A stretch of 64,000 nt of DNA from Clostridiales bacterium. Lineage in GTDB: Bacteria; Bacillota; Clostridia; Lachnospirales; JAQSXR01. Numbering within the stretch: position 1 is the stretch's first letter; each line of letters opens with the position of its first letter. The position numbers and the translations under genes are program-made. Below, one piece after another: positions 24,561 through 49,004 of the stretch. The notes beneath the pieces were generated by a model that saw only the letters and a list, made by a program, of their open reading frames with translations, did no database searches and had not been told where the DNA came from. The stretch lies in contig JAQSXR010000023.1 of NCBI GenBank assembly GCA_029256575.1, positions 1 through 64,000 of the forward strand. The letters run 5' to 3'.

Positions 24561-24564
24561 ACTT

Positions 24565-25017: not shown

Positions 25018-25397
25018 AGCGAACCCAACATTTTACCAAAGGCTACACTAAATAATAATGCTTTTGTTCCTATAATTAAGTTAGTTTTCTTGAAAAGTAT
25101 AGGTATAACTTTAAGTACTTCCGTTAATGATATGGCTACTATACCTACATACATCCCCATAAACGTGCTAATAATTGCTCCCCATACAGTACCTATTCTA
25201 ATAATAGGATGTGCTACTGCGATATATATTCCACTAATTAACCCAAAACATAAAGTCCATTTATAAAGTGTTAATCGATGTGTAGTATGTGTTCTAGTTG
25301 CTAATTTCTGGACTAATCCAATTAATAATAGAAATGATGATATTGCACTTGAAATACCGAACCCAAATATAATACCAACAATAATAGATATGGCCAT
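25014..25397 (-). CDS. spoVAB: stage V sporulation protein AB
   Basis: 127 aa, four membrane helices, with GIIFGFGISSAISSFLLLIGL at the N-terminus and the LYKWTLCFGLISGIY region typical of SpoVAB. The exact role is not known; it is needed with SpoVAA for dipicolinate uptake in Bacillus. Many clostridia lack spoVAA and spoVAB, so their presence here is informative. GGAGG precedes the ATG. Confidence 0.9.
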   Translation of the reverse strand: MAISIIVGIIFGFGISSAISSFLLLIGLVQKLATRTHTTHRLTLYKWTLCFGLISGIYIAVAHPIIRIGTVWGAIISTFMGMYVGIVAISLTEVLKVIPILFKKTNLIIGTKALLFSVAFGKMLGSL

Positions 25398-25409
25398 AAC
25401 AGAAACCTC

Positions 25410-25988: not shown

Positions 25989-26060
25989 GTTTTCACTCCT
26001 TTGAGTACACAAGGATTCTTGCTATCTGTCGATTGGACTTTATATACGCTAACTCTAGAA

Positions 26061-26210
26061 TTATATATACCTGAAGATATTATTATATACAAATGTACCG
26101 TGGCTAAGTGTCTCATCATCACCTCGATAGAAAAAATATACAACTCCTATAACAGCAATAATAATTATGATTACTAAAATAATGGCATAAATCCTACTTT
26201 TACTACTCAT
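26061..26210 (-). CDS. 49-aa membrane peptide between sigF and spoVA
   Basis: The ATG at 26210 has GAGGAG at good spacing. The peptide has a basic N-terminus (MSSKSR), one isoleucine-rich membrane helix (about residues 7-28) and a short tail, RGDDETLSHGTFVY, which would face outside. The position between the sigF terminator and spoVAA suggests it belongs to the spoVA transcript. I recall similar short Lachnospiraceae proteins ending in a GTFV motif but no assigned function. Confidence 0.65.
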   Translation of the reverse strand: MSSKSRIYAIILVIIIIIAVIGVVYFFYRGDDETLSHGTFVYNNIFRYI

Positions 26211-26307
26211 TGTTATTCTCCTCTTTTGTTTATTAATCCTTCTTTGATAGCTAAAAATATTGTTCTATTTATGATAGTATATTCAATACTTATAAAAATA
26301 AATAAGG

Positions 26308-26338
26308 AAAAAAATAACACGCAAAATTTGCGTGTTAT
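26308..26338 (-). terminator. terminator overlapping the sigF stop codon
   Basis: ATAACACGCAAA and TTTGCGTGTTAT pair around a single base, with a seven-base T-run on the minus strand (plus-strand A's at 26308-26314). It separates the spoIIA-sigF transcript from the downstream 49-aa gene and spoVA. Confidence 0.88.
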
Positions 26339-27054
26339 GAACTTAACTTATCTCTTAATTGTTTTAAAATTCTTTTTTCAATTCTTGAAACTTGCACCTG
26401 AGAAATTCCAATTTCCTTTGCAATTTCTGTTTGTGTTTTTTCTTTATAGTAACGTAACAGTATAATTTCTTTTTCCTTCGGTTCTAACTCTTCTAGTAAT
26501 TTATCTAAGGTAAGCCTATCAATTGTCCTGTCATTTTCATAATCATGATTTTCAATTTTGTCTAGCAAATAAATTGGATTTCCGTCACCTTGATGAATTG
26601 TTTTATATAAAGATTCGACGTCTACATTAGCTTCTAACGCCATTACCATTTCTTCCACTTCAATACCAAGCGTGTTAGCTATTTCTTGCGTTGATGGCTC
26701 TCTTCCTAATTGATTGTTTAACACTTCTTTTGTTATTTTTGCTTTCGTTGCTATTTCTTTTAACGAACGACTTACTTTAATCATACCATCATCACGCAAA
26801 AATCTTTTTATTTCCCCCATTATCATAGGAACCGCATATGTTGAAAATTTTACATCATAGGATAAATCAAACTTATCTATCGCTTTTATTAATCCGATGC
26901 TTCCTATCTGGAATATATCTTCCGTCTCATGTCCTCTATTTCCAATTTTCCTTACAATACTCCATACAAGACCTAAATTCTCTTCTACAATAGTGTCCCT
27001 AGCCTTATTATCGCCAGTCTGTGCTAGCTTTACTAATTCTAGTGTTCTATCCAT
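26335..27054 (-). CDS. sigF: RNA polymerase sporulation sigma factor F
   Basis: 239 aa, full-length sigma-70-family factor: region 2 (ENLGLVWSIVRKIGNRGHETEDIFQIGSIGLIKAIDKFD and on), region 3, and a region 4 helix-turn-helix (KTQTEIAKEIGISQVQVSRIEKRIL). The first forespore-specific sigma factor, held inactive by SpoIIAB. It begins 2 bases after the spoIIAB stop. The order spoIIAA-spoIIAB-sigF fixes its identity against the close paralogue sigG. Confidence 0.97.
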   Translation of the reverse strand: MDRTLELVKLAQTGDNKARDTIVEENLGLVWSIVRKIGNRGHETEDIFQIGSIGLIKAIDKFDLSYDVKFSTYAVPMIMGEIKRFLRDDGMIKVSRSLKEIATKAKITKEVLNNQLGREPSTQEIANTLGIEVEEMVMALEANVDVESLYKTIHQGDGNPIYLLDKIENHDYENDRTIDRLTLDKLLEELEPKEKEIILLRYYKEKTQTEIAKEIGISQVQVSRIEKRILKQLRDKLSS

Positions 27055-27056
27055 AA

Positions 27057-27497
27057 CTAATCCACCCGGTTATGTATACTATCAAATGTTTTTTTCATAG
27101 TAATCAAAGTACCTTTTCCAATATTTGAAGTTACATTTATACTATCCATAAATGCTTCCATTACCGTAAAACCCATCCCTGACCTTTCTAAATCAGGCTT
27201 TGATGTATATAATGGCTCCATTGCTTTCCCAATATCCTCAATACCGATACCATGATCTTCAATCTGAATTAATACGGTATTTTTATCAATTAAGCAAGAT
27301 ATATATACGGTTCCCTTCATTTCATTATACCCATGAATTATTGCATTTGTTACAGCTTCTGAAACTGCTGTCTTAACATCATTTAATTCTTCTAATGTTG
27401 GATCTAGTCTAGCTACAAAAGCAGCAACGACTGTACGTGCAAAAGATTCATTTTCAGATTTTGCATCAATTTCTAACCTCATTTTATTTGTTATCAT
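27057..27497 (-). CDS. spoIIAB: anti-sigma F factor
   Basis: 146-aa GHKL kinase fold: the N-box ([12 protein letters not shown]), the G1 box ([12 protein letters not shown]) and the G2 region ([15 protein letters not shown]). It binds sigma-F and phosphorylates SpoIIAA with ATP. It lies between spoIIAA and sigF with no gap, as usual. Confidence 0.97.
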
Positions 27498-32370: not shown

Positions 32371-35010
32371 CTATTTTGAAAAGTGTTCAAGTCGTTCATT
32401 TACTTGTCCAAGCATATGAGCATATTTATCTCTTTTAGCAGTTTCTTCATCAAGCTTAGCTTGTGGTGCCTTACTTACAAAACTTTGATTATTTAACATT
32501 CCATTAACTCTTTGAAGTTCTTTATTTAGTCTTTCTTTTTCTTTATTAAGTCGTTCAATTTCCTTTTCAATTTCAACCAATTCAGCAAACGGAATATAAA
32601 TAATTGCATCTGAGATTACAACTGAAACTGCATCTGGATCAATTCCTTCTTTGGACGTTTGAATTAATACTTCACTAGCATATCCAAGATTTCCGAAAAA
32701 TACTTTAGATGCTTCAAAAATATTTCTAACTTTTTCAACTTCTGAAACAATAATTACTTTTGCTTTTTTGCTTGGAGGAACATTCATCTCTGTTCGAACA
32801 TTTCTTATTCCTCTAATTGCTTCTTTCATAAGTTCTACTTCTGCTTCTTCAATCTCAAATGCCCATTCAGGTTTGAATTCTGGCCAATCAGATACCATAA
32901 TAGATTCTTCTACTTCTTGTACGGTACAGAAGATTTCTTCTGTAATAAAAGGCATATATGGGTGTAGTAATTTTAATGATTGAATTAAAACTGTTTTAAG
33001 TGTCCATAAAGCTGCTGGTTTAGTAGAATCTTTATCATTCCAAAGACGAGGCTTTATCATTTCAATATACCAGTCGCAGAATTCTTCCCAAATAAAATCA
33101 TACAGTTTCTGAACTGCGATTCCAAGCTCATACTTATCCATATTATCGGTTACTTCTTTGGCGAGCGTATTGGCCTTAGAAAGTATCCATTTATCTGCTT
33201 TTGTTAAATCACCTAATTGTACATCTTTCAATTCCGCTTTTTCAAAATTCATGAGCATAAATCGAGAAGCATTCCATACTTTATTTGCAAAATTTCTACT
33301 TGCTTCGATTCTTTCCCAGTAAAATCTCATATCGTTACCTGGTGCATTACCAGTAACAAGCGTAAATCTTAAAGGATCCGCTCCATACTTTTCAATTACT
33401 TCAAGAGGATCGATTCCATTACCAAGGGATTTACTCATCTTACGCCCCTCAGAATCTCTTATTAGACCGTGAATCAATACAGTATCAAACGGTAATTTTC
33501 CTGTATGTTCTAAGCCTGAGAATACCATTCTAACAACCCAGAAGAAAATAATATCATATCCAGTAACTAAAGTATTCGTTGGATAGAAGTATTTGAAGTC
33601 TTCCGTTTCATTTGGCCAACCTAAAGTTGAGAAAGGCCATAGCGCAGAACTAAACCACGTATCTAATGTATCTTCATCTTGTCTTATTTTTGAACTACCA
33701 CATTTACAGCTCTCTGGTTGTTCTCTCGAAACTATTATTTCACCGCAATCGTCACAATAGTAAGCTGGTATTCTGTGACCCCACCATAATTGACGAGAAA
33801 TACACCAATCTCTAATATTTTCTAACCAATTTAGATATACTTTTCCAAAACGTTCTGGTACAAATTTTAATTCACCAGTTTTGATTGCATTAATTGCAGG
33901 TTGTGCTAATTCTTCCATCTTAACAAACCATTGTGGTTTTATCATAGGCTCTACGGTAGTTTTACATCTATCATGGGTCCCTACATTATGAACATGCTCT
34001 TCTATCTTAACTAACAATCCTAGTTCTTCTAGATCTTTCACAATTGTTTTTCTTGCTTCATAACGATCCATCCCTTGATATTTACCACCAAGTTCATTAA
34101 TAGTTGCATCGTCATTCATTACATTTATTTGTGGAAGGTTGTGTCTAACCCCTACTTCAAAGTCATTTGGGTCATGAGCTGGTGTAATCTTTACAACTCC
34201 TGTACCAAAATCTTTATCAACATATTCATCTGAAATAATCGGAATTTCTCTATTTACGAATGGTAACATTACATTTTTACCAATTAAATGTTTATATCTT
34301 TCATCCTCTGGATTTACTGCAACTGCACTATCTCCAAGCATCGTTTCAGGTCTTGTTGTGGCTAATTGAATAAATTCCTCCGTGCCTACGATCGGATATT
34401 TTAAATGCCAGAAGCTTCCGGCTTTTTCTTCATGCTCAACTTCTGCATCCGAAATTGTAGTTTTACAAATTGGACACCAGTTAATTATTCTAGCACCTTT
34501 ATATATAAATCCTTTTTCATGAAGCTTTAGGAAAACTTCCTGAACTGCTTCGGAACACCCTTCATCCATTGTAAAGCGTTCTCTTTCCCAATCACAAGAA
34601 GATCCCATTTCTTTAAGTTGAGATATGATACGTCCGCCATATTCATCTTTCCATTCCCAAGCTTTTTTGAGAAACCCTTCTCTACCGATATCCTCTTTGG
34701 TAATACCTTCTTCTTTCATTCTTTGAATAATCTTAACTTCAGTTGCTATACTTGCATGGTCTGTACCTGGTTGCCAAAGCGCATTAAAGCCTTGCATTCT
34801 CTTCCATCTAATTAGTATATCTTGAAGTGTATTATCAAGTGCATGTCCCATGTGTAGTTGTCCAGTAATATTAGGTGGTGGCATCACGATTGTATATGGT
34901 TTCTTTTTACTATCTGGTTCCGCATGAAAATAATTTTTGTCTAACCATTTCTTATATAATCTTTTCTCAACTTTATCAGGTTCGTAGTTTTTCTCTAATT
35001 CTTTCCCCAT
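32371..35010 (-). CDS. valS: valyl-tRNA synthetase
   Basis: 879 aa, normal length. Class I signature [17 protein letters not shown] (HMGH motif), an editing domain with [19 protein letters not shown], the KMSKS loop as [11 protein letters not shown], zinc-like cysteines in CPICKT and [16 protein letters not shown], and the C-terminal coiled coil from about residue 815. It charges tRNA-Val. AAAGGAAG precedes the ATG. The 87-base leader is too short for a T-box. Confidence 0.98.
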
Positions 35011-35097: not shown

Positions 35098-36189
35098 TTA
35101 TATGTTACTTGCTTTGTCAATTGCATTTAGCTTGTATCTAGCCATCTCAAGGGATTCTTGATTAAAGGCCAACTGTTCTTTTAGCTTTTCCCGATTGCTT
35201 GTATACTCATCGATTAATTCTTCAAGAGCTTTTGAAGTTACCAAAGCATCGATATTACTTCTAAAAATAATTCCTTGTCCAATTCCAACTTTTTTTAGCT
35301 GCTCTTGTAATTTTTCTTCTAATCTTAGAATATTATCAGTGGCGTTTCGATAATTTCTAGTTTCTATTTTACGATTGGAGTATTGTTGATATTGATACAT
35401 CAAATCGTTGTAACTCATTACATGGTATTTTGCATATTCATATTCCAGATAACTAGTCGTATTGACATATTTTATCTTAACTTTATCTTGTATTTGAACA
35501 ACTCTAACTTGTTTGAGTCCGATGGTTTTTAGGACAACTTCACTTTTCCTTCTGTTGGTAAATACAATGAATACAACTAACGCACCATAAAACACTAATA
35601 AAATACTTGGTACTACGATATCTAAGCCATCACTTATCATAACAATTAGTATGACCAGCATAATAGCAATAACTCCCACTGATATAATACTAAATCTTCT
35701 TACCTTGATACTCGAATCAATCGTACACTGTTTGGTATATTCCAAATCACCTTTTTCACCTTCTAGGTGGTTCAGGTCTGTTTTCAATAGTAATTGTCTA
35801 TCTTCAAGTTCTTTGATTTTCTTTATATCTTCTTTTATCGCATCTTGATTTTGCTCGATATATTTATACTGTGCTTCCGATTTTGCTGATACTTTCTCTT
35901 GATAACGCTTTCTTTCATCTTCAGAATTCTTAAGCATGGAAGCTGTTTCAAGAATTTCCTTTCGATGAGCTTTCGGAATTCGTTCTATTTTTTGTAAATC
36001 AACAATCGTATTTGTTAATTTTTCATATTCCTTTGTAAGCCTATTTCCTAAACCTTCTAGTTCATTAATTTGTTCTCTTAATTGACTAATATATTCGCCT
36101 TTATTCTCGATACTATTTATATCAAATTCCACTGTGTAATTTTCGTTTGATTTTAATAGCCAACCTTTTATTTTATTTAATATTCCCAT
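35098..36189 (-). CDS. coiled-coil protein with two membrane helices
   Basis: 363 aa from the ATG at 36189, preceded by AAGGAG at 8 bases; the frame open to 36237 has no ribosome site and would overlap the upstream gene. Residues 20-150 are coiled coil (EQINELEGLGNRLTKEYEKL and on), two membrane helices lie at about 162-184 and 190-208, a beta-rich stretch follows (about 220-265), then a second coiled coil to the end. Last gene of the Hsp70 cluster; it could anchor the complex to the membrane, which is inference from context. Confidence 0.75.
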   Translation of the reverse strand: MGILNKIKGWLLKSNENYTVEFDINSIENKGEYISQLREQINELEGLGNRLTKEYEKLTNTIVDLQKIERIPKAHRKEILETASMLKNSEDERKRYQEKVSAKSEAQYKYIEQNQDAIKEDIKKIKELEDRQLLLKTDLNHLEGEKGDLEYTKQCTIDSSIKVRRFSIISVGVIAIMLVILIVMISDGLDIVVPSILLVFYGALVVFIVFTNRRKSEVVLKTIGLKQVRVVQIQDKVKIKYVNTTSYLEYEYAKYHVMSYNDLMYQYQQYSNRKIETRNYRNATDNILRLEEKLQEQLKKVGIGQGIIFRSNIDALVTSKALEELIDEYTSNREKLKEQLAFNQESLEMARYKLNAIDKASNI

Positions 36190-36203
36190 GCTAAAAACTC
36201 CTT

Positions 36204-36791
36204 CTATGAAAGTTGCTTGCGATATATAGCTTTCCATTGTTCAATAAGTTTATCTACGGTTTCATAATAAGATTTTGATAGACCCACTTTTCTATCCAAT
36301 CTTGCTATTCTTATATTAATCAAGCAATCTTCTCCAGACAGTAACTTTGCTTTATGGATGCAATCTAGTGCTTTTAACATTTGTCCTTCTTTTTCGTAGA
36401 GTTCTGATAATCTGTAATATATCCTTTTCTTATCATTTTCATCAACATCTATTTGTTCTAATAAATCAATTGCTTTTTCTGTTTCTAAGAGGTCTTCATA
36501 TATTCGCGATAAATTAAGTGCAAATTCTATTGGATTTAGGTCTTCTATGTCCCTAATCGCATCAAAGGCTTTACTTGCTTGCCCTTTGGTTAAAAGTATT
36601 TGTACCACATGCTCATACGGTTCAAATAGATTTGGCTCAGAACATATTGATTTATAAAATGATTCCAATGCACTATCTAAATCCTTTTGTAATTCATAAT
36701 ACAAACCAAATACATACCACAATCTAGAATCTGAATATTTTTTGCTGTATTTTAATAACTCTAAAAATAATAGTTCATACTGCTTATCCAC
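36204..36791 (-). CDS. TPR protein of the Hsp70 cluster
   Basis: 195 aa as drawn from a GTG. Helical hairpins at about 34-word spacing (SRLWYVFGLYYELQKDLDSA, NLFEPYEHVVQILLTKGQAS, KKRIYYRLSELYEKEGQMLK) are tetratricopeptide-like. The GTG has no ribosome site, and the frame stays open and TPR-like for another 25 codons upstream (to about 36866) without a standard start, so either a rare start codon is used or the 5' end is damaged. The neighbour order suggests a co-chaperone or scaffold for the Hsp70 proteins. Confidence 0.7.
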   Translation of the reverse strand: MDKQYELLFLELLKYSKKYSDSRLWYVFGLYYELQKDLDSALESFYKSICSEPNLFEPYEHVVQILLTKGQASKAFDAIRDIEDLNPIEFALNLSRIYEDLLETEKAIDLLEQIDVDENDKKRIYYRLSELYEKEGQMLKALDCIHKAKLLSGEDCLINIRIARLDRKVGLSKSYYETVDKLIEQWKAIYRKQLS

Positions 36792-36858
36792 TAATAACGC
36801 AAGTAAATATTGTGATAATGAATCAAGATTCGCACTTATACTAAATGCCGTCTTAAAT

Positions 36859-37230
36859 TTATGCTGTATCGCCTTTTAACTTAATCTTCTCATCATTCGA
36901 TTTCTTCTTCCAAACTTCTAGTTTAGCAGCCAATACATCTAATTCTTCCGCACTATATAGAAATGAATTTTTCAACATTCTTAATAAACAATCTATCTCG
37001 GATTCCCCATTACTTACTTTTTTAATTATGCTAAAAAGTATTTCATTCATTTCTATATCATCTTTTATCCAATTCGTAATGCTTGTACTTGGGAAATCAT
37101 CTATTACTATTTCAAAGTATTCGTAGCATATATAACAAAATTCTTCAAGAGTATACACTTCTACCCCTATATCTTTAAATAAATATGGTTTCTTCGCTAC
37201 TTTGTCAGATGCTAATATAAGTTTTCCCAT
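36859..37230 (-). CDS. 123-aa protein of the Hsp70 cluster, unknown
   Basis: A soluble, acidic, mainly helical protein (starts MGKLILASDKVAKKPYLF; has YTLEEFCYICYEYFEIVIDD and a lysine-rich end). No membrane helix and no recognised motif. The ribosome site is weak (TAGGC). Its end overlaps the open, start-less 5' extension of the TPR gene frame, which suggests coupling between the two. Its constant presence in this cluster in related genomes would be the test of a shared role. Confidence 0.65.
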   Translation of the reverse strand: MGKLILASDKVAKKPYLFKDIGVEVYTLEEFCYICYEYFEIVIDDFPSTSITNWIKDDIEMNEILFSIIKKVSNGESEIDCLLRMLKNSFLYSAEELDVLAAKLEVWKKKSNDEKIKLKGDTA

Positions 37231-37279
37231 TTTATAGCCTACTTTCCAAGAAATTTATTATCTCGTACCAAGCAAATCG

Positions 37280-37327
37280 TTGTTTGAATACTTCTTTGTT
37301 TGAATGCTTCTTTGTTTGAATACTTCT
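37280..37327. repeat. three tandem copies of a 16-bp unit
   Basis: TTGTTTGAATACTTCT three times in a row (37280-37295, 37296-37311, 37312-37327), the middle copy with one change (GCTTCT). It lies just after the stop of the Hsp70-vWA gene, in the only gap over 60 bases within the cluster's core. Confidence 0.9.
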
Positions 37328-37338
37328 TCGTCTATTTT

Positions 37339-39374
37339 TTATACAATTCTAACTAATTCAACTATTTCATGCGCGATGCTATCTAGAATATCATTAAATG
37401 ATTCATTCATATTATAGTAATGACCATCGCTTCCAATTAGTGGTGTATACTGCTTAACACTCTCTAAGTCTCTTTTTGCTACTACATACGTAGTGATACC
37501 TTTTGTTCTTAGAGTTTCTCCAATTTTATCACTATCATTTCCTTTTTGCGTAGGTGTGTGTGACTCTGCATCCGTTATTAGTATCATGATTGTACGTGAA
37601 TTCTCTAATAATATTGAGCTATCAATTAAATCTATCGCTGTTTCAACAGCATCTAACGAAGACTCTGGTATATCTCCACCATAGTAACGAGGTAATTTCT
37701 TAACATATTTCTTAAACTTAACAATATCTGAAGTAAATTTGTTAACCTTCGGCTTTTCTTTTTCTCCTAAGTCTCCAAATCCAATTACTCCTAGTTGATA
37801 TTTTGACCCGTTTGATTTTAATATATTAGAAAATTCGATTGCCTTATCTTTGACTCCATCGATATAGTATTCCATACTTCCAGTTGTATCAATTACAAAA
37901 ACAACATTGTACGCATCCTTATTTTCATAAGTTACAGGAGTTCTGTCTGGAGCGGGTTGTGTTTTTTCTCTGTCAAAGGTTGTTGTTACAAGTCTTCCAG
38001 TTGAAGTGTCTTTTAGATATACTTCAAATATATTGTTTTCATTTATAGAATACGTAACTTCAACTGCTGTGTCACCCTTTATATTGTCAAGTAATACTGT
38101 TCCTATATATTTTTTGTTTTCATCTTCAATATTCTCCCATTGAAAAACATCAACTGCTGCTGCCGTCGCATTAGCGAAAGTTTTAAAGCCTTTATCTGTA
38201 ATCTTTACTGGGATTTGAGTACCCATTTGTATAATAGGTACATATTCTTTTTCTAACGTTTCAATATTAGTTATAGCCCTCGTTCCAAGGTTCATTCTAG
38301 CTATTTGCGCTACTTTCACAGGGCTACTAGGTAAATGCAACAGATAATTATAGATTGCGGCACCCATAGCAACTGTCTTTGCTGGGTCTTTTGAGCGATA
38401 TGGTTCCTTTATCGATCCTGCAACCATTCTTTGCACCATAGGAACTAAGGTTGTTCCCCCTACCAAAATAACCTTAGATATATCATCTTTATCTAAACTT
38501 GAACGTTCAAGTGCTTCTTCAATTATCTCACTTGTTTTTTCAATTTTTTCTCTTATTAAGGATTCAAACTGTTCTCTTGTTATTTCCATTACGAGATTAT
38601 AAGGCATCCCCTTCTCAACAATTAGTGGCGTGATCTTAACTTCTACCTTTTGAACAGAGGATAATTTTATTTTAATTTGTTCTGCTTCTTTTTTCAGTCT
38701 TTGAAATAATCGGATTGTAGTTTCTTGATCTAATTTTTCAATATCAATAGAATTCTTAAACTTAAATTCATATAACATATAATCAATTAAACATTGGTCA
38801 AAATCGGTTCCTCCAAGGAGCATATCACCAACATCTGAAAGTTCACTATAGACTTCATTCCCTCTTGCATCTTTATAAGTAATGTTTGTGCATAGTTTTG
38901 TTTAAATCCATATTCAACTGCTGCAGATAATGGTTCTGAGAGAAGGTGTACATCTTTAAAACCAGCTAATTCACCAGCAAGTTTAGTGGCATATATCTGC
39001 CTATCATTAAAGTAAGCAGGATGCGTGATTACTACTTCATTATATTTTTCATTAAATTGCTTTTCTGCAGCATTTTTTAATGTCTTTAGTATCTCGGCAC
39101 TGATTTCTTCTGGTTTGTATTCCTTATCATCTATTTTATATGTTATATCTTGTCCCATTTCACGTTTCACTTCGATAATCGTTGTATCTGGATAGATGAT
39201 AGCTCCCTCTTTTGCCTCTTTCCCTACGATTATTTCGCCCGATTGAAAACATACAACGGAAGGGAGTATTTCATCTTCACCATCAAGTTTTACGATTTCT
39301 ATTTCATCATTTTTATCGTTATAAATTGCTGCAACAGAATTTGTTGTTCCCAAATCAATTCCTAAATACGCCAT
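37339..39374 (-). pseudogene. Hsp70-von Willebrand A fusion, interrupted by an internal deletion/frameshift
   Basis: Two overlapping frames (39374-38787 and 38823-37339) make one protein of about 670 aa. The first part has the Hsp70 phosphate-1 motif GIDLGTTNS and reads to AQTLL; after the break near 38875 the other frame continues with YKDARGNEVYSELSDVGDMLLGGTDFD. The missing piece is the phosphate-2 strand (expected DxGGGTFD), so a deletion of roughly 10-15 codons, not a multiple of three, removed part of the ATP site. The second part has VGGTTLVP, a beta-rich substrate domain and, in place of the usual helical lid, a vWA domain (last 190 residues) with MIDAS motif DTTGS. The start ATG 39374 has AGAGG. 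Either broken, or needing frameshifting to be made. Confidence 0.85.
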
Positions 39375-39379
39375 GTTAC

Positions 39380-40999
39380 TCACCTCTCGCTTTCTCTATA
39401 TGGACGAAATACCTGCTTGAATCCACTCGGCTTATACTCTTCAAAAAACCCCAAATCCTCAACCATTCCTTCAATAATTCCACCATCTTCTGATGCAGTT
39501 ATTGTAAGTTTTATTCTTGTTTTCCCCGAAGGTCTTAATGGAAGATTTGAAATACTTACTTCACCAATTAATTTAGTTTTTTCATAGCTGTCGTTTTTAT
39601 TAATTTTCTCAAGTATATTAATCTTAAACGTAGTCATCTCTTCTTCAGTATCACCTTTTAGAGTGAATATCTGAGACTTCTTAGCAAGCATATATGAGGT
39701 TCCTCTTGGTATCATTGGGTAAAATTCATTATTCACACCCTTGTTTATCTCAATACCAATATCATGTGGTAGAGATAGGTTGAATTCTAGTGCAGGTATA
39801 TCTGTTTTAAAATCTGCATTCTGAATTATTCCCATCTTAATCGCTGCATAATAGGTTGCTCCAATCGAAATATCAAGAGCAGGCTGAGAGGAGTAATAGA
39901 TTTTCTCTTCTGTTCCAAAAATATTAAGTAGCATATCTTTTACCCAAGGCATTTTTGAAGAGCCACCTTCAAGAATTATTCGATCTATATCACTTGCTTG
40001 TAATGCCCCTGTGTAGGCTTCCAATAATGATTTTCTAGTCAAACTATTTGTTTTCTTAATAAAAGGTTCTATTATTTCCTCGAAACTGTCTTTGTCAATA
40101 TTGTGCACAAATGGCGGAACACAAAATGTGAATGGTATTCTATAGCTTTTAGATCCTGACAATCTTTCTTTTGCTTCTCTACTTCTTAGATAAATTTCAA
40201 CTTCTTGTTCTTTTGTTATTGCTTCTCTTTTAATTCCTGTTTTTGTCTCAATTAGCTTTGTACATTCATCTACGATTACGTTATCAACAATATCTCCACC
40301 GTGATAGGCATCTCCACCTTCACTAATAACTTTTATACTAATTGTGTTATTATTCTTTGACACAACCTCAAAGATTGTAATGTCAAGTGTTCCCCCACCA
40401 AAATCAAACACCATTATCTTTTCATCTTTATTTACTTCTTGCTTTGTGTTGTAAGCTATCGCTGCAGCGATTGGTTCTTCCACTAAACAAATTAGCTTAT
40501 CTGCAACTCCTGCTATCTCACAAGCTTTTATCGTCGCTTTCTTAGCACTATCATCAAAACCATATGGTATTGATACGATTAATCCTGCTAGTTCAAATCT
40601 AGGGTCTTGCTCATTTAGATGCTTCAGAGCTGCTTCAATTATCTTTGCAGAAAGTTCTTCTGGTTTGTATTTGTCATCTCCTAATTGTATGTTCTTAGAA
40701 GTACCCATTTCTCTTTTGATCGATCGGATAGTAGATTCTGGGTAAATCTTCATGGATTGATATGCCTCTTCCCCAACGATCCATTCCTCGCGTCCATTAT
40801 CCTTACGTCTTTGAATTACAGATGGCATAGGAATTTTACCAAACCCATGGCTTATATCTACTGGCTCTGGGCATTTCTTTCTAGCATTCCAATAGCTAAC
40901 CACTGTATTCGTAGTTCCTAAATCCATTCCAACAATATACCAATTATCTTCTATTTTTTTATTTCTCTGAATTTTCTTGCTATAGTCTTGCCAGTTCAC
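39380..40999 (-). CDS. Hsp70-family ATPase (DnaK-like), third in cluster
   Basis: 539 aa, shorter than DnaK (about 610). ATPase motifs are complete: MDLGTTNT (25-32), FDFGGGTLD (198-206) and LEGGSSKMP. A short beta-rich substrate domain follows, with no helical lid and no GGF-type extension. An 18-residue charged N-terminal extension precedes the ATPase. Cytoplasmic. Its stop overlaps the region just before the Hsp70-vWA start, and it begins 12 bases after the degenerate paralogue. Confidence 0.9.
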   Translation of the reverse strand: MNWQDYSKKIQRNKKIEDNWYIVGMDLGTTNTVVSYWNARKKCPEPVDISHGFGKIPMPSVIQRRKDNGREEWIVGEEAYQSMKIYPESTIRSIKREMGTSKNIQLGDDKYKPEELSAKIIEAALKHLNEQDPRFELAGLIVSIPYGFDDSAKKATIKACEIAGVADKLICLVEEPIAAAIAYNTKQEVNKDEKIMVFDFGGGTLDITIFEVVSKNNNTISIKVISEGGDAYHGGDIVDNVIVDECTKLIETKTGIKREAITKEQEVEIYLRSREAKERLSGSKSYRIPFTFCVPPFVHNIDKDSFEEIIEPFIKKTNSLTRKSLLEAYTGALQASDIDRIILEGGSSKMPWVKDMLLNIFGTEEKIYYSSQPALDISIGATYYAAIKMGIIQNADFKTDIPALEFNLSLPHDIGIEINKGVNNEFYPMIPRGTSYMLAKKSQIFTLKGDTEEEMTTFKINILEKINKNDSYEKTKLIGEVSISNLPLRPSGKTRIKLTITASEDGGIIEGMVEDLGFFEEYKPSGFKQVFRPYRESER

Positions 41000-41011
41000 C
41001 CAATCACCTCA

Positions 41012-42496
41012 CTAATAGTTAAATTTTTGTTCCCATTTTCTTAATGTTCCTGGAAAGATAGAGCCTAATCCAACATCAGTTATTTCAACTTTTGCTTCCT
41101 TTTCGCTTATAAAATTAATATTTATTCTTACTTTTGTAGTTTTATTTGGTCTCTTCGGTAAATTAGATAAATGAATACTACATACTATTTGCTCTTTAAC
41201 CGCATTTCCTTTTGCAATAACGTTAATATCATTAATATCATCTAAGATAACAAAGATAGAATTATTCGCACTATACCATGGAGTACCAGCAGTAATTACC
41301 GGTACAAATTTTTCTTCATTTGCATTATTTATTAGTAAGCCATAATCCTGTGATAGGATCCCTTTTCCTGTTATTATCTTTTCTGTTTTTTTGCAGATGC
41401 CATAATTAGAAGAAACACAGTAGCACGCACCATAACTAAACAAATTCTGTCCTTGAAAGACTCTTCTTCCTTTACAGAGTAATTTTAGTGAATTAGAAGC
41501 CCAGGGAACTTCAAATCCGCTTCCAACTAAAAATACCGCAGGTAGTAAGTTGTTATTCAATAATTCTGCTATAATGCCCTCAAATCTCGAATCTAAATCA
41601 CTTAAATACTTATAGAGCACTTCTGGTTCAACTTCGATTTTAATCGGCGGATATAACCCATTAAAGAATATATTTGCTTTTTGATTTTGTGATATTTTTG
41701 AAAAAATAAATTGTTTATTTTTATAATACACATTTTCAATTTCTTTTTCTTCTTCTATTGTTATTGATTCTTTATTCGCTGCCTTTTTGTAAAGTTCTAA
41801 TATATATTCTTTTACTATCTCATATACCATTGAGGCTTTTATAAATTCGCTATAGTCTACTTCATCAACTTTAATTTGCCATACCGTTGAGGAATTCTTT
41901 ACCGATATTTGATAGTACCTAAGACCATTTTGAGACATCTCAAATATACCTGCTTTTTTTTGCGGCATTTCTTCACTGATAAAATATTGAATGCCACTTT
42001 CCAAATGACTTTGAATATGTATATTTTCTTTCGCAATATCATTACTTTGAAGTGCTTTTGTTATTACTTTTACTGTAGTTGTATCTACTTTTTCTGTACT
42101 TATCATGATTGCTTTCATATAACTATTGGGATTTATTTTCTTTAAGTTTACGAATATTTTATTAAAGAAAATAGCTAATATCTCCTCTGGAGCATATTCC
42201 TTCCCGCATATATTATAAACTGCACCCGTTCCAATAACTTCGACTAAATTGGTGATTCTATATATCCCTTCTTGCTCATCATCCAGAAGTGCCTCTTCAC
42301 CAACTAACCACTCATCTATGTTCGAATTATATAATATAACGGTCGGGATTTGTTCTGATCCGTATCCCCCTGTTGGATTAATTGCTAGTGGTTTATTCTT
42401 AATATAATCCCAATAACTAATTAAGGAGTAATCAGTGCATAGATCAAATCCTATAAAATACTCATTTTCATTATATTTTTGATTATTTTGAGCCAT
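41012..42496 (-). CDS. Hsp70 paralogue with degenerate nucleotide site
   Basis: 494 aa. It aligns by eye along the whole Hsp70 layout, but the key ATP motifs are lost: DLGTTNS is DLCTDYS (about residues 18-24), DxGGGTFD is replaced by IFEMSQNGLRYY, and VGGSS is VGSGFEVP. It keeps KEYAPEEILA and the C-terminal beta-domain signature SNLPKRPNKTTKV shared with its neighbour at 39380. Probably a non-hydrolysing structural or regulatory paralogue that pairs with an active Hsp70. AGGAGG precedes the ATG. Confidence 0.82.
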   Translation of the reverse strand: MAQNNQKYNENEYFIGFDLCTDYSLISYWDYIKNKPLAINPTGGYGSEQIPTVILYNSNIDEWLVGEEALLDDEQEGIYRITNLVEVIGTGAVYNICGKEYAPEEILAIFFNKIFVNLKKINPNSYMKAIMISTEKVDTTTVKVITKALQSNDIAKENIHIQSHLESGIQYFISEEMPQKKAGIFEMSQNGLRYYQISVKNSSTVWQIKVDEVDYSEFIKASMVYEIVKEYILELYKKAANKESITIEEEKEIENVYYKNKQFIFSKISQNQKANIFFNGLYPPIKIEVEPEVLYKYLSDLDSRFEGIIAELLNNNLLPAVFLVGSGFEVPWASNSLKLLCKGRRVFQGQNLFSYGACYCVSSNYGICKKTEKIITGKGILSQDYGLLINNANEEKFVPVITAGTPWYSANNSIFVILDDINDINVIAKGNAVKEQIVCSIHLSNLPKRPNKTTKVRININFISEKEAKVEITDVGLGSIFPGTLRKWEQKFNY

Positions 42497-42512
42497 GCGA
42501 TAATTCCTCCTT

Positions 42513-43352
42513 TTATTTGCTAGCTACGATTGTCGCTCTTCTTAGAATTTTATTGTTATACTCATACCCTCGATTTAGTACTTCTATTACCTCACCCTTT
42601 TCAAATTCCTCTTTTGAGTCAGCAAGTAATATTTCGTGTAACTTCGAATTAAATTTATCATGTTCATTCGGATTGATAATTTGAATACCTATTTTTTGTA
42701 ATTCTTTCAGGATATTTTTATCTAACTTCTTGAACTCTTTTACCGTAGCCAAGTTGTTATTTAATACTGGAATTGAGTATTTTTTGAGATCCTCAAAAGT
42801 TATAATTTCAAATAATATATAATTACTAATATAGTCTTCTAAGTCTTTTTGAATTTGCATATTACTGTTGTTTAATTCATTTCGAGCCTCTAACACTATT
42901 TTCTCAATTAAATTGTCAATATTTTGTAATTCACTTTCTTCCTTTAATACTAACAATCTATCATAAGCTTTGTTTACAACATCTGCTACCTCAAGCTTAT
43001 ATTTAATAATTAATTCCTCTTTAATATACTCAACCTGCTCTAAAACAGCTTGATCTTTTAGGGTTATTGTATCGAGTAAGCCTTGTACTATTTTATTTTG
43101 CGATTCTATTGTAAGCGTTAAATCATTTTCCAAAGTTAGCTTATAAACTCCTAACTTTTTATGTAAGTTTAATAACATGCTGCACACTGCTTTTAATTCA
43201 TGTAGCGTCTGTTCTTGCTTAGCTGCTTCTAACTGTTCAATTTCGTTAGTTGCAATCATCCTACCAACAATAACTTCGGTCCATTCATTCTGTAGATTAA
43301 CCAAAAATTCAATATCTCCATCTGATATGCTTTCAATACTATCATTCGTCAT
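42513..43352 (-). CDS. GrpE-like nucleotide-exchange protein
   Basis: 279 aa, longer than GrpE (about 190). The first 190 residues are long helices and coiled coil. The C-terminal 85 residues follow the GrpE beta-domain pattern: LQKIGIQIINPNEHDKF, then FEKGEVIEVLNRGYEYNNKI and the closing LRRATIVAS, which matches GrpE's final GY...LRPAxV. It presumably exchanges nucleotide on the neighbouring Hsp70 proteins. It lies 15 bases after one Hsp70 and 16 before the next. Confidence 0.82.
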   Translation of the reverse strand: MTNDSIESISDGDIEFLVNLQNEWTEVIVGRMIATNEIEQLEAAKQEQTLHELKAVCSMLLNLHKKLGVYKLTLENDLTLTIESQNKIVQGLLDTITLKDQAVLEQVEYIKEELIIKYKLEVADVVNKAYDRLLVLKEESELQNIDNLIEKIVLEARNELNNSNMQIQKDLEDYISNYILFEIITFEDLKKYSIPVLNNNLATVKEFKKLDKNILKELQKIGIQIINPNEHDKFNSKLHEILLADSKEEFEKGEVIEVLNRGYEYNNKILRRATIVASK

Positions 43353-43367
43353 AATTGCACCTCCTCC

Positions 43368-45032
43368 TTAATACAGCTCATCAACAGTTAAAATAGTTTC
43401 CACTCCATCTGTACTCACACACTTTGCCATAACAGTTAATATATTATCTGTAGTAAGTTTGAATACAACTTTTACCTTTTCTTCTCCACGCCTTGCTTTT
43501 GGAATTCCTCTAAGCGTTGTTCCAGCTAGTCGTTTCATTCCTTCATCATAGACAAATAGATGTCTATTCTCTAGGTTAGAACGCGTATCCTCATACACGG
43601 ATATAGCCATACTTGTTAAGTCATCTACACCTGTTTCAAGTAAATGCTTTGCCTCAACGATTAATTCATTATTAATTATTGGTGTCCCCTCTTTAATAAC
43701 TTCCATAAATCTTCGTCCCGATACCTCAAGTCCAAAAGCATGTACTGTTTTTTCGGTAACTTCATAAGAAACTCCATCATCATTTAGTAACTTAGAGTAG
43801 TAGGCTGCCCCTTGAGAAATACTGAATGCTGGACTTATTTTCCCTTGATAAGGTAATATGTTAAATTTATTTTGTAGTTTCTCTCTTATTAAAGGTATGG
43901 AAGAGCTTCCTCCAACTAATATAATTTCATCTATATCTTCTGTGGTAACTTTTGCTGAAGCTAAGCACTCTTCTACAATCTTAATGCTGCTATCGATTAA
44001 GTCCTCTACACTTTTACCTACGTATTCTTTATCATTTTGTCCTATTTTGTTTGTTCTCTTATATGTTAAAAATGAATTTCTATCGATCTCAAATTGGATA
44101 TTAACTGGTACTGGCTCTTGAATAATAGGTGCAATATTAACTTTTACACTCGAAGATACGGATAGTCTCTCCTTTGTCATAGTTGCTACCTGTCGCATTC
44201 TTACTTGTGCAAGCTTTTTCTGTTTTGCAGAAATTCCGTCATCACAGTTTAAATCATATAAATTAAATTTTCCTTCTGTTTGTTCAAGAAATTTCTGATA
44301 TATCATATCTATTACGATATTATCTATATCATTTCCACCTAAATTATTTTCACCATACGTTGAGATAATCTCAATCTTAGGTTCGTTCTCTCTTATCATC
44401 TCTATATCTAGAATGCAAGCATCAAAAGTTCCCCCACCAAAATCATAGATTAAAACCTTTTTGTTTTTTTCCTGGTCAATCGCATAAGTTATAGCGGCAG
44501 CGGCTGGTTCAAGTCTTAGGCTAATCCCTTCTTCTTTAAATCCCGCTAGCCTAGCTGCTTGTTTTGTTTTACTTTTTTGTTTATCCGTTGAATTTGCTGG
44601 CACCGTAATAACACAACTATCTAAAATAACAGCAGTTCCATATTCTTGTTGAATAAATTCTTCTGTTTTTTGCTTTAAGAACCCAAGAATCTCCCCCGCA
44701 ATATCTTCTGGCATAAATAAATATTTTTCTTTATCAACCACTATTTCAACTGGTGTGTCTCTTCCAAGTAGTCTCTTAATCGATAAAACTGTACTTTCTG
44801 GATATACGCTAACTGATTCTCTTGCTGAAAATCCGAAATTCCTTATAAACTTGTCCGCAAATTCTTCATCTTTCTCAAATTGTATCGCTGTTGGCACTAA
44901 GCAATCTCCCTCGATTTGTATGGTATGTACCTGCTTATCCAAATTACTATATAAACTAACAACACTATTTGTCGTTCCAAAATCTATTCCCATATAAAAG
45001 TTTTGTTCTTCATCAATACTCAGAATCCCCAA
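43368..45032 (-). CDS. Hsp70-family ATPase (DnaK-like), first in cluster
   Basis: 554 aa. Complete ATPase: GIDFGTTNS (15-23), YDFGGGTFD (196-204), VGGSSSIP (373-380). A beta-type substrate domain follows (VKEGTP-like VIKEGTPI and on) and the protein stops without the helical lid of DnaK. This is the best-conserved Hsp70 of the cluster. It starts 19 bases after the 885-aa gene and is followed at once by the GrpE-like gene, the order expected of a chaperone and its exchange factor. Confidence 0.92.
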   Translation of the reverse strand: MGILSIDEEQNFYMGIDFGTTNSVVSLYSNLDKQVHTIQIEGDCLVPTAIQFEKDEEFADKFIRNFGFSARESVSVYPESTVLSIKRLLGRDTPVEIVVDKEKYLFMPEDIAGEILGFLKQKTEEFIQQEYGTAVILDSCVITVPANSTDKQKSKTKQAARLAGFKEEGISLRLEPAAAAITYAIDQEKNKKVLIYDFGGGTFDACILDIEMIRENEPKIEIISTYGENNLGGNDIDNIVIDMIYQKFLEQTEGKFNLYDLNCDDGISAKQKKLAQVRMRQVATMTKERLSVSSSVKVNIAPIIQEPVPVNIQFEIDRNSFLTYKRTNKIGQNDKEYVGKSVEDLIDSSIKIVEECLASAKVTTEDIDEIILVGGSSSIPLIREKLQNKFNILPYQGKISPAFSISQGAAYYSKLLNDDGVSYEVTEKTVHAFGLEVSGRRFMEVIKEGTPIINNELIVEAKHLLETGVDDLTSMAISVYEDTRSNLENRHLFVYDEGMKRLAGTTLRGIPKARRGEEKVKVVFKLTTDNILTVMAKCVSTDGVETILTVDELY

Positions 45033-45050
45033 TTAACTCAGCCCCTTAAT

Positions 45051-47708
45051 CTATAGTGGTTTAAAATAAGTTGTAATCTTGTTTTCTCTCTCAATATATT
45101 GATCCAGTATACGATCTAATTTATCACTGTCATTTTCTTTACGTGCAATTAACATTGAATTAATCTGTTCATAGTTGCTACTATTGATATCATAAATGTA
45201 TAACCCACGATTCTCTTCTATAACAAATCGTTCACTACTTACAATATTTGTAATGTCATCCATTATTTCTTCTATGTAATATTGAAAGCTTTCATTATAA
45301 AAAAGTAATACACTACCAACAAATAAACCTTCTGCAACTTGCTTCATTTCTTGCTCAATATAACCTTCTTCAAAGTTATATCGATAGTGTACTACTACTT
45401 TTGCAATGCTAGAGCTAAAATATTCAATATAGGATCTTTCATATAAGTCACTTGGTAATATAACCTCATCCCCAAAATTCTTAAACCAAGATACTAGTTT
45501 CTTTTGCTTATAAAACTTTTGTGCAATTTGTTGAGACCATTGAATTTCAGGATATGTTAAATCTTTTTTCATACTATAATATTTAATTAGTACATACTCA
45601 TACACACTATTTTCGCCGCTAAACCCTAATCTTTTCTGAATAATATCAATAATTTGATTTGGCACAGTTTTCAACCCAAGTAAAAATGAATAAGAGCAAA
45701 ATCTTAAGTAATTTTCCATAAGTGGAGAATTTATATTATCTTTACTATAACTAACCACCATTGGCATATATTCTACATCTGTGGCTTCTATAAAAATCAT
45801 CTGTTCGATTGCCCGTTCTTCTAAGGCTGTAGCATTAAACCCTAATTCAACTGCTTTTCGCCATACTACTTCTAATTTATTTAAGGAAGTATCATAAAAT
45901 TTAATTAAGTAAGCAATGATATTCTCATTATGATTTCCCTCTGCAAATAGACGCTCACAAATGGATAAGATTATATTATCATATAATCCCGCATGCAGCA
46001 TATGTTCACACAACAAGCAAAGGCTATCTGATGTTAAATCATAAGCACCATATTCGTTTATTGCATGAATTGCTTCATCTACCATCTTGAAGTTAATGTA
46101 AAAATCTATCATCTTATCGATGTTAGGATATGACAAACAGTCTAGTTCAACTGCTTTTATTAAATTTAAGATTAAACTATAATTATCATTATTGATTTCA
46201 TATTCGCTTAATACTTTATACGCTAGATTACTTCTATATGATTTCGTCAAACCCTTCAATGTTAATACTTTTAGAATAACTGTTACTGCTTTATCATCGA
46301 TAAGGTCGTGATTCACTGCCTCTGAAGCTAAGTATACAAGTGACCGATCACTATATATTCCTTTTACATATGCTCCCTTTACATAAGAAATATCACTTAA
46401 TACACTTTCTATACTATAAACGATCCCTCTAGAATATCGAATGTTTTCAATATCAAGAAAAGAGATAACATAATTAGGTGAATATATTTCAAAATAAGCT
46501 GTACTATTTTCGAGTGGAATTATTACTTCTCTCTCTATGTCTGTATAAGTTACTACTAGCAGTTTCATTTTCTCATTCTTACATATTAATTTATGAATAA
46601 ATGTAACCTCTAGAAGCTTCTGCATAAATCTAGGGGTATCTAGTGTTTCCATTACATATCTGTATATCCTTGCTAAAAAACAATTCATTTTCTTCTTCGC
46701 CAACTGTTCCTCAGCAAATACTAATATTTGTTTTTGATACAATTCTACTGCTTGTGGTGTTTGATTCATAATAATATTTGCATATATATATTCTTTACTC
46801 TCATCGTCAATTTCTGTATTATAAACAAAATATCGGATTAAGGTTTGAGGTAACATTGAAATATCAGAACGATCAATTGATGCTATGTAATATTCGTTAA
46901 GTCCATTTACACGTATTTGTTCTTCAATCCCTATTTTATACCAAGCGTTCGCTACTTTATCCTTACGCTCACCTATAATTAATAAATTGCAAATTGCACG
47001 AATAAACTCTTTGTCTTGATAAGTCCTATATAATCTAGCCAATAACTTATATACCAGTTTATTATAGGTCGTTAATCTATGTACGATTAATATAATTTTA
47101 TTTGATAATTCGTTATTAATGTAATTCTTATTTGCTCCCCATAATAAAGCCTGAAGTTCAAACCCTTCTAATCTTCGAAGCAAAGTTGGATTTTCATTCA
47201 AGAGTGTACATAATTCAAAAAACATTATAGGGCTATTACACTTGCTAATTTCTTGAAATAAATTCATTTTTAACAATTTATTCTTTATAATACTCTCATC
47301 TATATAAAGCCTTAACCATTGGGCTCTCCAATCAAAAGACATTTTATCTGCAATTTGAGAAATTATCATACTTCCCCTATGCTGAAGCTGTATATCTTCA
47401 AAAAAAAGACATTTCAAATAAACATAATAAGCATATACAAAACGTTCCGTATCAATTAATTCCTTCTCGTTCTTTTCGTATATACTTAAAATCTCTTTTG
47501 CTTTGTCTGTATTATTCGAAACAATATGTAAATGTGCTGTTATTAATGGATAAATATGTTCTGCTGGGTCTAACCTCATTAAAGTACGCAGTTCCTCTAG
47601 GGATTTCCGAACGAACTCTTCCGAAGTTATATTAGATAATCTAAAATCCATATATTCTTTGACGATATTCACCTTGCTAATTTTTATCTTATGATATATG
47701 TTAGGCAT
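45051..47708 (-). CDS. 885-aa helical-repeat protein, DUF5717-like
   Basis: Helical hairpins resembling TPR-type repeats run through most of the protein (for example HIYPLITAHLHIVSNNTDKA; SLNKLEVVWRKAVELGF), interrupted by a beta-rich segment near residues 400-460. The last 150 residues are beta-rich with VVVHYRYNFEEGYIEQEM and YNESFQYYIEE, which recall the C-terminal part of Lachnospiraceae DUF5717 proteins; this is from memory. No membrane helix. Likely a large scaffold or client-binding partner of the Hsp70 proteins, 19 bases upstream of the first one. Confidence 0.65.
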   Translation of the reverse strand: MPNIYHKIKISKVNIVKEYMDFRLSNITSEEFVRKSLEELRTLMRLDPAEHIYPLITAHLHIVSNNTDKAKEILSIYEKNEKELIDTERFVYAYYVYLKCLFFEDIQLQHRGSMIISQIADKMSFDWRAQWLRLYIDESIIKNKLLKMNLFQEISKCNSPIMFFELCTLLNENPTLLRRLEGFELQALLWGANKNYINNELSNKIILIVHRLTTYNKLVYKLLARLYRTYQDKEFIRAICNLLIIGERKDKVANAWYKIGIEEQIRVNGLNEYYIASIDRSDISMLPQTLIRYFVYNTEIDDESKEYIYANIIMNQTPQAVELYQKQILVFAEEQLAKKKMNCFLARIYRYVMETLDTPRFMQKLLEVTFIHKLICKNEKMKLLVVTYTDIEREVIIPLENSTAYFEIYSPNYVISFLDIENIRYSRGIVYSIESVLSDISYVKGAYVKGIYSDRSLVYLASEAVNHDLIDDKAVTVILKVLTLKGLTKSYRSNLAYKVLSEYEINNDNYSLILNLIKAVELDCLSYPNIDKMIDFYINFKMVDEAIHAINEYGAYDLTSDSLCLLCEHMLHAGLYDNIILSICERLFAEGNHNENIIAYLIKFYDTSLNKLEVVWRKAVELGFNATALEERAIEQMIFIEATDVEYMPMVVSYSKDNINSPLMENYLRFCSYSFLLGLKTVPNQIIDIIQKRLGFSGENSVYEYVLIKYYSMKKDLTYPEIQWSQQIAQKFYKQKKLVSWFKNFGDEVILPSDLYERSYIEYFSSSIAKVVVHYRYNFEEGYIEQEMKQVAEGLFVGSVLLFYNESFQYYIEEIMDDITNIVSSERFVIEENRGLYIYDINSSNYEQINSMLIARKENDSDKLDRILDQYIERENKITTYFKPL

Positions 47709-47737
47709 CCTTTACCCCCGGAATAATAAATTTAATC

Positions 47738-48928
47738 TCACGAAACCATAATCTTATTTGTTGCTATATCCAAAATAAATTCTTTCCTCATCTTAGCGGT
47801 TCCAAGTTGTATCAATACTGCAAACTTAATCTTAAATGTAAGTCTTTTTACACTACTTCCTGTACGCTGCACTGGTCTCACAAATCTAATCTTAATTTGA
47901 GCTGTGCTTGTAATCTGGTAGGATGATTCACTCGAAATAATACAATTAGCTTCATCCTCTATGGATACCGTCATCTTCTTACCACTTAGATTTTCTACTG
48001 TTAATATAGCTTCATCCTCTTGCGTATAGCTTATCTTATCTAAGTAAACATTCGTAATAAGGCTTTTCATACAGCTTACGCCATGAATTATTGTACAATT
48101 ATGCGTTTCTATATAAATATTACCTTCATTCGTACCAAGATGCATTTTCATGGGATCTACATAGTATTCAATTTCCATTCTATTTCCCATAAAATCATCT
48201 GAATCAAAATTTTGTTTTACAACTCTCATAAAACTTGCATCCGTTTTAATGCTACCTTTCACGTAACCCCATGTATCCTTCTCAACAACAATTCTATTTC
48301 TTGCTGTTTCATTCAGTAATTTCTGTTCACCATCGTCTGCTTTTACCCGCAGGCTAATGGCATTTTTTTGTTTCATAAATATTAGAAAATCTTCAAGCCC
48401 TTGGTCTAGTGATGTATTATTTCTACATAATTTATAAAAATTAATGTGCTCCATACAATTTAATAAAAATATATCTTTAAAACTCGTTTCCTCAAATATA
48501 GCTACTGCCTTATCCCAATTATGTTTTGCATACTCAGCAAATTGGCTTATATCTTTTATCTTTCCCTGTACGGTATCGATAGACTTTTCGTGCACAATAA
48601 TATCGATTGGAATACTCACATTTCCACCATTTGTAACGATCTCCATTACGTCTTGAATATGCTCTTCCTTCGTAATAAATGTATTTAAATACATATATTC
48701 AATCTCTACACTATTGCCTTCAAAGATAGTTTCCTTAATCTCAAGCTTTGGTATCGATGTAAAAATACGACCCCGCAACCTTCCCCCAGCAATATTTTCA
48801 ACTTTAAAATAACCCTTTGTTACAGTACCTACCTGTGTAATAATCTGAATATTATCCACCGATACCTTAACAATTGGTTTTTCTTTATTTATATTTTCAA
48901 TTGTAAGTTGTTCCATTATATTTTCCAT
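47738..48928 (-). CDS. 396-aa beta-rich protein, first gene of the Hsp70 cluster
   Basis: Sequence of mostly short strands (VSVDNIQIITQVGTVTKGYF; LRGRIFTSIPKLEI; later a second half with similar pattern), suggesting two to three immunoglobulin-like or beta-sandwich domains around a helical middle (about residues 135-185). No signal peptide, so probably cytoplasmic. It may correspond to the N-terminal part of larger DUF5717 proteins, with the 885-aa gene downstream as the rest. AGGGGTG precedes the ATG. A strong promoter lies 50 bases upstream. Confidence 0.6.
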   Translation of the reverse strand: MENIMEQLTIENINKEKPIVKVSVDNIQIITQVGTVTKGYFKVENIAGGRLRGRIFTSIPKLEIKETIFEGNSVEIEYMYLNTFITKEEHIQDVMEIVTNGGNVSIPIDIIVHEKSIDTVQGKIKDISQFAEYAKHNWDKAVAIFEETSFKDIFLLNCMEHINFYKLCRNNTSLDQGLEDFLIFMKQKNAISLRVKADDGEQKLLNETARNRIVVEKDTWGYVKGSIKTDASFMRVVKQNFDSDDFMGNRMEIEYYVDPMKMHLGTNEGNIYIETHNCTIIHGVSCMKSLITNVYLDKISYTQEDEAILTVENLSGKKMTVSIEDEANCIISSESSYQITSTAQIKIRFVRPVQRTGSSVKRLTFKIKFAVLIQLGTAKMRKEFILDIATNKIMVS

Positions 48929-48975: not shown

Positions 48976-49004
48976 ATTATAACACTTTTTGCATATATTA
49001 ACAA
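48976..49004 (-). promoter_or_regulatory. sigma-A-type promoter of the Hsp70 cluster
   Basis: Minus strand TTGTTA (49004-48999), a 17-base spacer and TATAAT (48981-48976), about 45 bases before the first cluster gene. No CIRCE element (TTAGCACTC-N9-GAGTGCTAA) was seen, so classic HrcA heat control is not supported. Confidence 0.75.

Follow-up and report, generated by a model that had tools for sequence, protein, structure and literature searches.

RESULTS

Gene content of the block

The window, the whole 64-kb stretch of DNA analyzed here, carries a block of 11 open reading frames (ORFs) at positions 35098 to 48928, all on the minus strand and in one orientation. By comparison with loci in other genomes of Lachnospirales, an order of gut and soil bacteria, the 11 ORFs resolve by homology into nine genes: AB (counted as A and B), C, D, E, F, G, HI, and J. 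An earlier note on this DNA had listed ten co-oriented genes; the common strand and the tight packing down to 37.3 kb held, but the count did not. From the first gene to 37.3 kb, the intergenic gaps are 29, 18, 15, 16, 12, and -4 nt. Below that point they are 108, -34, and finally 87 nt, the last being the gap to valS. The features, in the direction of reading, are as follows.

48976-49004, minus strand: promoter-like site upstream of A (10/12 consensus matches, extended -10 with TG)
47738-48928, minus strand: A, beta-rich protein of 396 aa forming the N-terminal part of DUF5717; two stretches look Ig-like by eye (PF18984 positions 1-289, 233 bits)
45051-47708, minus strand: B, rest of DUF5717_N plus DUF5717_C, 885 aa (PF18984 positions 301-874, PF18983 positions 1-306)
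43368-45032, minus strand: C, Hsp70 with nucleotide-binding domain (NBD) and SBD-beta, no lid, 554 aa (PF00012, 220 bits)
42513-43352, minus strand: D, GrpE-like exchange factor, 279 aa (PF01025, 46.1 bits; alignment with relatives)
41012-42496, minus strand: E, DUF5716, degenerate Hsp70, 494 aa (PF18980, 249.9 bits; cutoff, 34.7)
39380-40999, minus strand: F, Hsp70 with NBD and SBD-beta, no lid, 539 aa (PF00012, 185 bits)
37339-39383, minus strand: G, Hsp70-vWA, broken in the window into ORFs 38787-39383 and 37339-38823, vWA domain at ~37399-37908 (identified from unbroken relatives)
36204-37230, minus strand: HI, small N-terminal domain plus TPR array, broken in the window into ORFs 36859-37230 and 36204-36791 (one ~387-aa gene in relatives)
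35098-36237, minus strand: J, two-transmembrane (two-TM) hairpin between coiled coils, 379 aa (hydropathy)
32371-35010, minus strand: valS, downstream neighbor of the block

The valS gene adjoins the block or sits near it in other loci too, in both the long and the short forms described below. The site upstream of A had been rated a good promoter; it is present, but promoter-like sites are no more common in the region than in shuffled sequences (89 versus 79 +/- 8). No CIRCE element was found when up to three mismatches were allowed, in agreement with the earlier reading. Pfam matches in the block included no domain of a nuclease, a GTPase, or an RNA-binding protein, and none of the cluster ORFs scanned matched the McrB GTPase or McrC.

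Two supposed parts lost their separate standing. The beta-rich 396-aa protein and the 885-aa protein are two halves of one DUF5717 protein, with both PF18984 and PF18983 above cutoff; in many relatives the halves are fused, forming a single protein of ~1200-1330 aa in the short-form family f2 and in some long-form families. The 123-aa ORF, taken for an unknown of its own, was rejected as an independent gene because in relatives it is joined with the TPR ORF as the single gene HI.

Elsewhere in the window, SpoVAA and SpoVAD homologues together with SigF- and SpoIIAB-like genes recognized by eye (23538-27497, minus strand) suggest that the organism probably sporulates. A 991-aa protein encoded at 6138-9113 (minus strand) has a SIR2_2 domain (PF13289, 90.8 bits), a type of domain that occurs in defense proteins. 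Upstream of a dapA-like gene lies a lysine riboswitch (15423-15597, minus strand; RF00168, 112 bits).

Broken reading frames of G and HI

In the window's G, ~17 codons (~49 nt) that include the phosphate-2 motif YDLGGGTFD are replaced by 2 nt at 38873-38872, resulting in a frameshift. Relatives of G are ~690-735 aa long and have YDLGGGTFD at the place that falls between the window's two ORFs, and the frame is unbroken in 71/71 loci elsewhere, as far as the contigs reach. There is no second copy of G in the window's genome. Programmed frameshifting was considered and rejected: it would account for one frame step but not for the absence of ~17 codons that include the ATP motif. HI is missing ~45 codons (a size taken from the alignment) and also changes frame. 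Because both genes are interrupted, the machine proposed below may be partly disabled in the window's own genome.

The lesions have a counterpart in an unrelated peptidoglycan-binding-like gene of the same contig (54994-56421, plus strand), which is disrupted relative to its homologues in loci L052 and L079 by frame-changing deletions at ~55.3 and ~56.0 kb. Given these similar lesions, whose frequency was judged within the window only, an assembly error explains the breaks in G and HI as well as decay does. A gene for a CPA2-type antiporter (11767-12846, plus strand) stops abruptly (GVAIGLASVVITLCLFYECIN), possibly through a further deletion with a frameshift.

Long and short forms of the block in Lachnospirales

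DUF5717_N was found in 229 of the 392 Lachnospirales genomes sampled. Phylum-wide it occurred in 5/398 genomes, all five in Lachnospirales; G was found in the window's genome alone among 396 genomes across the phylum, as was C among 196 genomes across the class. Relatives were recovered from genome contigs by searching with a vWA-Hsp70 alignment, and a search of genome contigs with the single 885-aa protein returned no relative.

Two forms of the block emerged from the 392-genome survey. The long form, A-B-C-D-E-F-G-HI with J in some loci, occurs in many families, and the short form, AB-E-HI usually followed by J, occurs in f2, which is probably Lachnospiraceae judging from the many genera it contains. 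Long-form loci came from Defluviitaleaceae and Vallitaleaceae (Petrocella), both within Lachnospirales, and from metagenome-assembled genomes filed under Candidatus Epulonipiscium and Clostridiales. In 21 loci (e.g., L045, L050, L051, and L056) a class I/II aminotransferase gene lies upstream on the opposite strand, in divergent orientation; the window does not have it.

The neighborhood survey bore out the expectation that the genes travel together. C-D-E-F-G, always in that order, is present in 30 of the 44 loci with at least 8.5 kb of sequence upstream of G, and in 23 of these 30 all gaps are shorter than 150 nt. Among non-f2 genomes with DUF5717, 89/98 also carry the vWA-Hsp70, which occurs without DUF5717 in three genomes. 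The block is not indivisible: G sometimes stands without C and/or F, with neither in reach in 5/44 loci and with F only in 6/44.

The f2 block contains none of C, D, F, and G. Our genome-wide search of f2 covered C, F, and G: C and F were absent from 60/60 f2 genomes searched and found in 4/4 positive controls, and G was not found in the f2 genomes searched, which yielded one weak vWA-only match (genome G713). The description of the system as Hsp70 centered therefore has to be given up, since the f2 block is made up of DUF5717, HI, and the degenerate Hsp70, in most cases with J. Independent occurrence of the families, which the earlier note had named as evidence against a common system, was seen in one direction only: the core exists without the Hsp70 module, but the module almost never exists without the core. 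The scaffold plus the pseudo-Hsp70 is the conserved, constant part.

ATPase sites, lids, and the J-protein interface

Residues D8, T11, T12, K70, E171, D194, G196, G197, T199, and D201 (DnaK numbering) of the ATPase site are invariant in C (27 sequences), F (22), and G (20) and degenerate in E, which lacks equivalents of K70, E171, T199, and D201. The site is kept in 27/27 relatives of C, which is 48-59% identical to its own orthologues, in 22/22 relatives of F, and in the window's copies of both. The phosphate-1, phosphate-2, and adenosine motifs are likewise present in the window's C and F, absent as a set from E, and complete for G in the relatives only, as the window's G has no phosphate-2 motif (DLGGGTFD). 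Four Hsp70-type proteins had been described from the sequence, two with complete ATP motifs, one degenerate, and one fused to a vWA domain. This inventory stands except that the vWA-fused gene is split here into two ORFs and its ATP motif is not intact.

The lids are indeed missing. After SBD-beta, the window's C continues for 9 residues and F for 17, versus 146 in the genome's own DnaK; overall, C and F have 9-29 residues after SBD-beta, with ~20 in F. Across the block's Hsp70s, lid lengths are 9, ~20, 213 (vWA), and ~13. In G, the vWA domain takes the place of the helical lid of DnaK, and its metal-site residues DxTxS, GGD, and TD are invariant in ten sequences (alignment A1).

In DnaK, R167, N170, T173, and the linker are implicated in DnaJ binding or stimulation (PMC4022485). 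The DnaK sequence VKRIINEPT at the J contact becomes (Y/S)LRLEPA in C, CLIEEPK in F, and (H/Y)LLSEPL in G. All three residues are replaced in C, F, and G by others that are fixed or nearly fixed in each family, and the genome's DnaK retains all three; for R167, the replacement was judged from the ungapped motif, as the R167 column of the multiple alignment is off by one for some rows. D393 and the hydrophobic linker of the J interface are also replaced in C, F, and G, with the linker alignment less certain than that of the NBD motifs. As read from these alignments, the lost contact residues lend support to J-independent action of C, F, and G, and they could also reflect divergent rather than absent use of a J-protein. 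The reported lack of a J-protein applies to the cluster, but the genome has three J-domain matches (PF00226) elsewhere, one of them 262 nt downstream of the canonical dnaK match.

The GrpE-like C-terminal domain seen in D was confirmed, with PF01025 scores of 46.1 bits in the window and 54.6 bits in a relative (cutoff, 25.8). D is 279 aa long in the window versus 563-645 aa in most relatives.

The proposed scaffold, the TPR protein, and the predicted membrane hairpin

An AlphaFold2 model of B predicts an alpha-solenoid with two beta-sandwich insertions (strands at 371-435 and 757-825; mean pLDDT, 75; pTM, 0.46). Compared with PDB folds, it matched only generic TPR/HAT/PPR solenoids with low TM-scores, Ski3 and PPR10 being among the best matches as generic solenoids only. 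The predicted structure of the HI protein of Defluviitalea phaphyphila (mean pLDDT, 92.6) has an N-terminal domain and, from residue ~95 onward, helical repeats, and Pfam scores the HI repeats of a relative as TPRs.

J has hydropathy peaks at residues 183-201 and 207-225, with similar spacing in 18/18 members; J and its 17 relatives share a two-TM hairpin with long arms on either side. Besides the window, a profile search found J in 6/31 long-form loci (L064, L065, L097, L099, L100, and L101). Another 11/31 have a different membrane coiled-coil gene directly 5' of DUF5717 (L072, L073, L082, L084, L085, L087, L088, L090, L094, L095, and L096), and the two genes never occur in one locus among these 31. 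The rest have neither J nor another TM coiled-coil gene in the sequence covered, which is short in some stretches. Where a locus carries J, attachment to the membrane is plausible, gene neighborhood being what links J to the other parts; such attachment is not general because so few of the other long-form loci have J.

Origin of the short form

Both trees come from quick searches and have long branches, and relationships within groups are uncertain. In the tree of AB, the f2 rows, 22 in all, form the sister group of the window (support, 100), and another branch (100) has all 28 long-form rows on one side. The Hsp70 tree recovers C, G, and the E rows of f2 each as a single clade and pairs E with F as sisters (100). 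In this tree, the E proteins of f2 are the sister group of the window's E; the window's C and F group with their long-form counterparts. A single row labeled E inside the F clade (L090) is a truncated F mislabeled by the length filter.

By this placement, the window is a long-form genome on the branch from which the short form comes, and E looks like a paralogue of F that has degenerated. Since f2 is the sister group of the window for both AB and E, the simplest and most likely account is that C, D, F, and G were lost on the branch to f2, leaving the short form.

DISCUSSION

We give about an even chance to the reading that the block encodes a Lachnospirales-specific machine, with a vertically inherited core of DUF5717, pseudo-Hsp70, and TPR protein to which most non-f2 families would add an ATP-driven module of three Hsp70s and a GrpE-like factor. 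The core would comprise the DUF5717 scaffold (Ig-like domains and alpha-solenoid), a DUF5716 pseudo-Hsp70 that presumably no longer hydrolyzes ATP, and the TPR protein, joined in many lineages by the putative membrane hairpin with coiled coils (J). Clients would be delivered by the solenoid, TPR, and vWA parts without a J-protein. E may pair as a structural partner with an active Hsp70, as Ssz1 does in yeast. Contact with the scaffold would fire ATP hydrolysis in C, F, and G, and D would reset them through nucleotide exchange. Where J is present, the cycle might run at the cytoplasmic face of the membrane on envelope or membrane-associated clients, envelope proteins being a guess. In f2, the scaffold and pseudo-Hsp70 would operate without an ATPase cycle, probably as a static adaptor.

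A bolder version of this model is possible but on balance doubtful. Its three ATPases would be fired by the solenoid/pseudo-Hsp70 scaffold and not by J-proteins, the metal-binding vWA domain would replace the lid as a client clamp, and one branch would have shed the motors and kept the scaffold and dead Hsp70 in use. J-proteins are regarded as the general trigger of Hsp70 action. A conserved set of Hsp70s that lack the J interface and have an ATPase and an exchange factor of their own would show another way to fire the cycle and would make a vWA domain in the lid position testable as a clamp. The block also gives a first context for DUF5716 and DUF5717, which are found in over half of the sampled Lachnospirales genomes, and DUF5716 would be a pseudo-Hsp70 that remained after its active partners were lost.

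The Hsp70s may not be folding chaperones at all and may work instead inside a large signaling or translation-linked complex, either as conformational switches driven by ATP or as modules that bind RNA or ribosomes. In CoCoNuT systems, an Hsp70-like domain with degenerate motifs has been proposed to direct the system to RNA or ribosomes (PMC11090510), and vWA and Hsp70-like modules are known from such defense-related systems (PMC11090510). Hsp70s with no lid and a degenerate linker would be poorer at trapping peptides; Ski3 and PPR10, which rank among the fold matches of B as generic solenoids only, both act with RNA; and valS adjoins the block in several families. We nevertheless consider the switch or RNA-binding role unlikely, as a dedicated GrpE-type factor and three Hsp70s whose ATPase residues are fully kept indicate an ATP cycle and the Pfam scan showed no nuclease, GTPase, or RNA-binding domain in the block. 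Defense systems are usually patchy and mobile in distribution. The presence of the block follows groups of the order, with the long form and the short form each confined to one side of a branch, its valS synteny is common to several families, and its PADLOC matches are weak (33 and 24 bits, to a generic Hsp70-like model and a TPR-bearing model). An anti-phage system built from Hsp70 and vWA parts is thus highly improbable, despite the precedent for such modules.

We also judge it improbable that the block is a decaying relic in this genome, heading for the reduced f2 form. A, B, C, E, F, and J are intact ORFs, C and F have all their catalytic residues, and every lesion is isolated within an otherwise open, conserved frame. 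The position of the window's AB and E next to the module-less f2 branch fits decay, as do the short D and the interruptions of G and HI; HI, however, is retained in f2, and the similar deletions in an unrelated gene of the contig fit an assembly error equally.

The proposed machine and DnaK-DnaJ-GrpE have in common a GrpE C-terminal domain and Hsp70s built of NBD plus SBD-beta in which the ATPase residues are intact. The machine differs in having three lidless Hsp70 paralogues that have lost R167, N170, and T173, in the absence of a J-protein from the block, and in the added scaffold, TPR, and TM partners. The combination of an active Hsp70 with an atypical Hsp70 partner recalls the yeast Ssb-Ssz1-Zuo1 (RAC) triad, in which Ssb in the ATP state pairs with Ssz1 (PMC8476630). 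RAC uses a J-protein, however, whereas the block encodes none, and the block's pseudo-Hsp70 persists in f2 without active Hsp70s. Our literature searches on lidless or vWA-fused Hsp70s returned only the CoCoNuT type IV restriction systems (CnuD), in which degenerate-motif Hsp70-like proteins, coiled coils, and vWA proteins are encoded together (PMC11090510); unlike these, the block is without McrB GTPase, McrC, or HEPN domains and is vertically inherited. By score, E belongs to Pfam family DUF5716 (PF18980), and A and B belong to DUF5717 (PF18983/PF18984), families that carry no function. Searches found no literature on DUF5717 and one irrelevant match for DUF5716. As far as these searches show, DUF5716 had not been recognized before as a pseudo-Hsp70, nor DUF5717 as the constant partner of an Hsp70 module.
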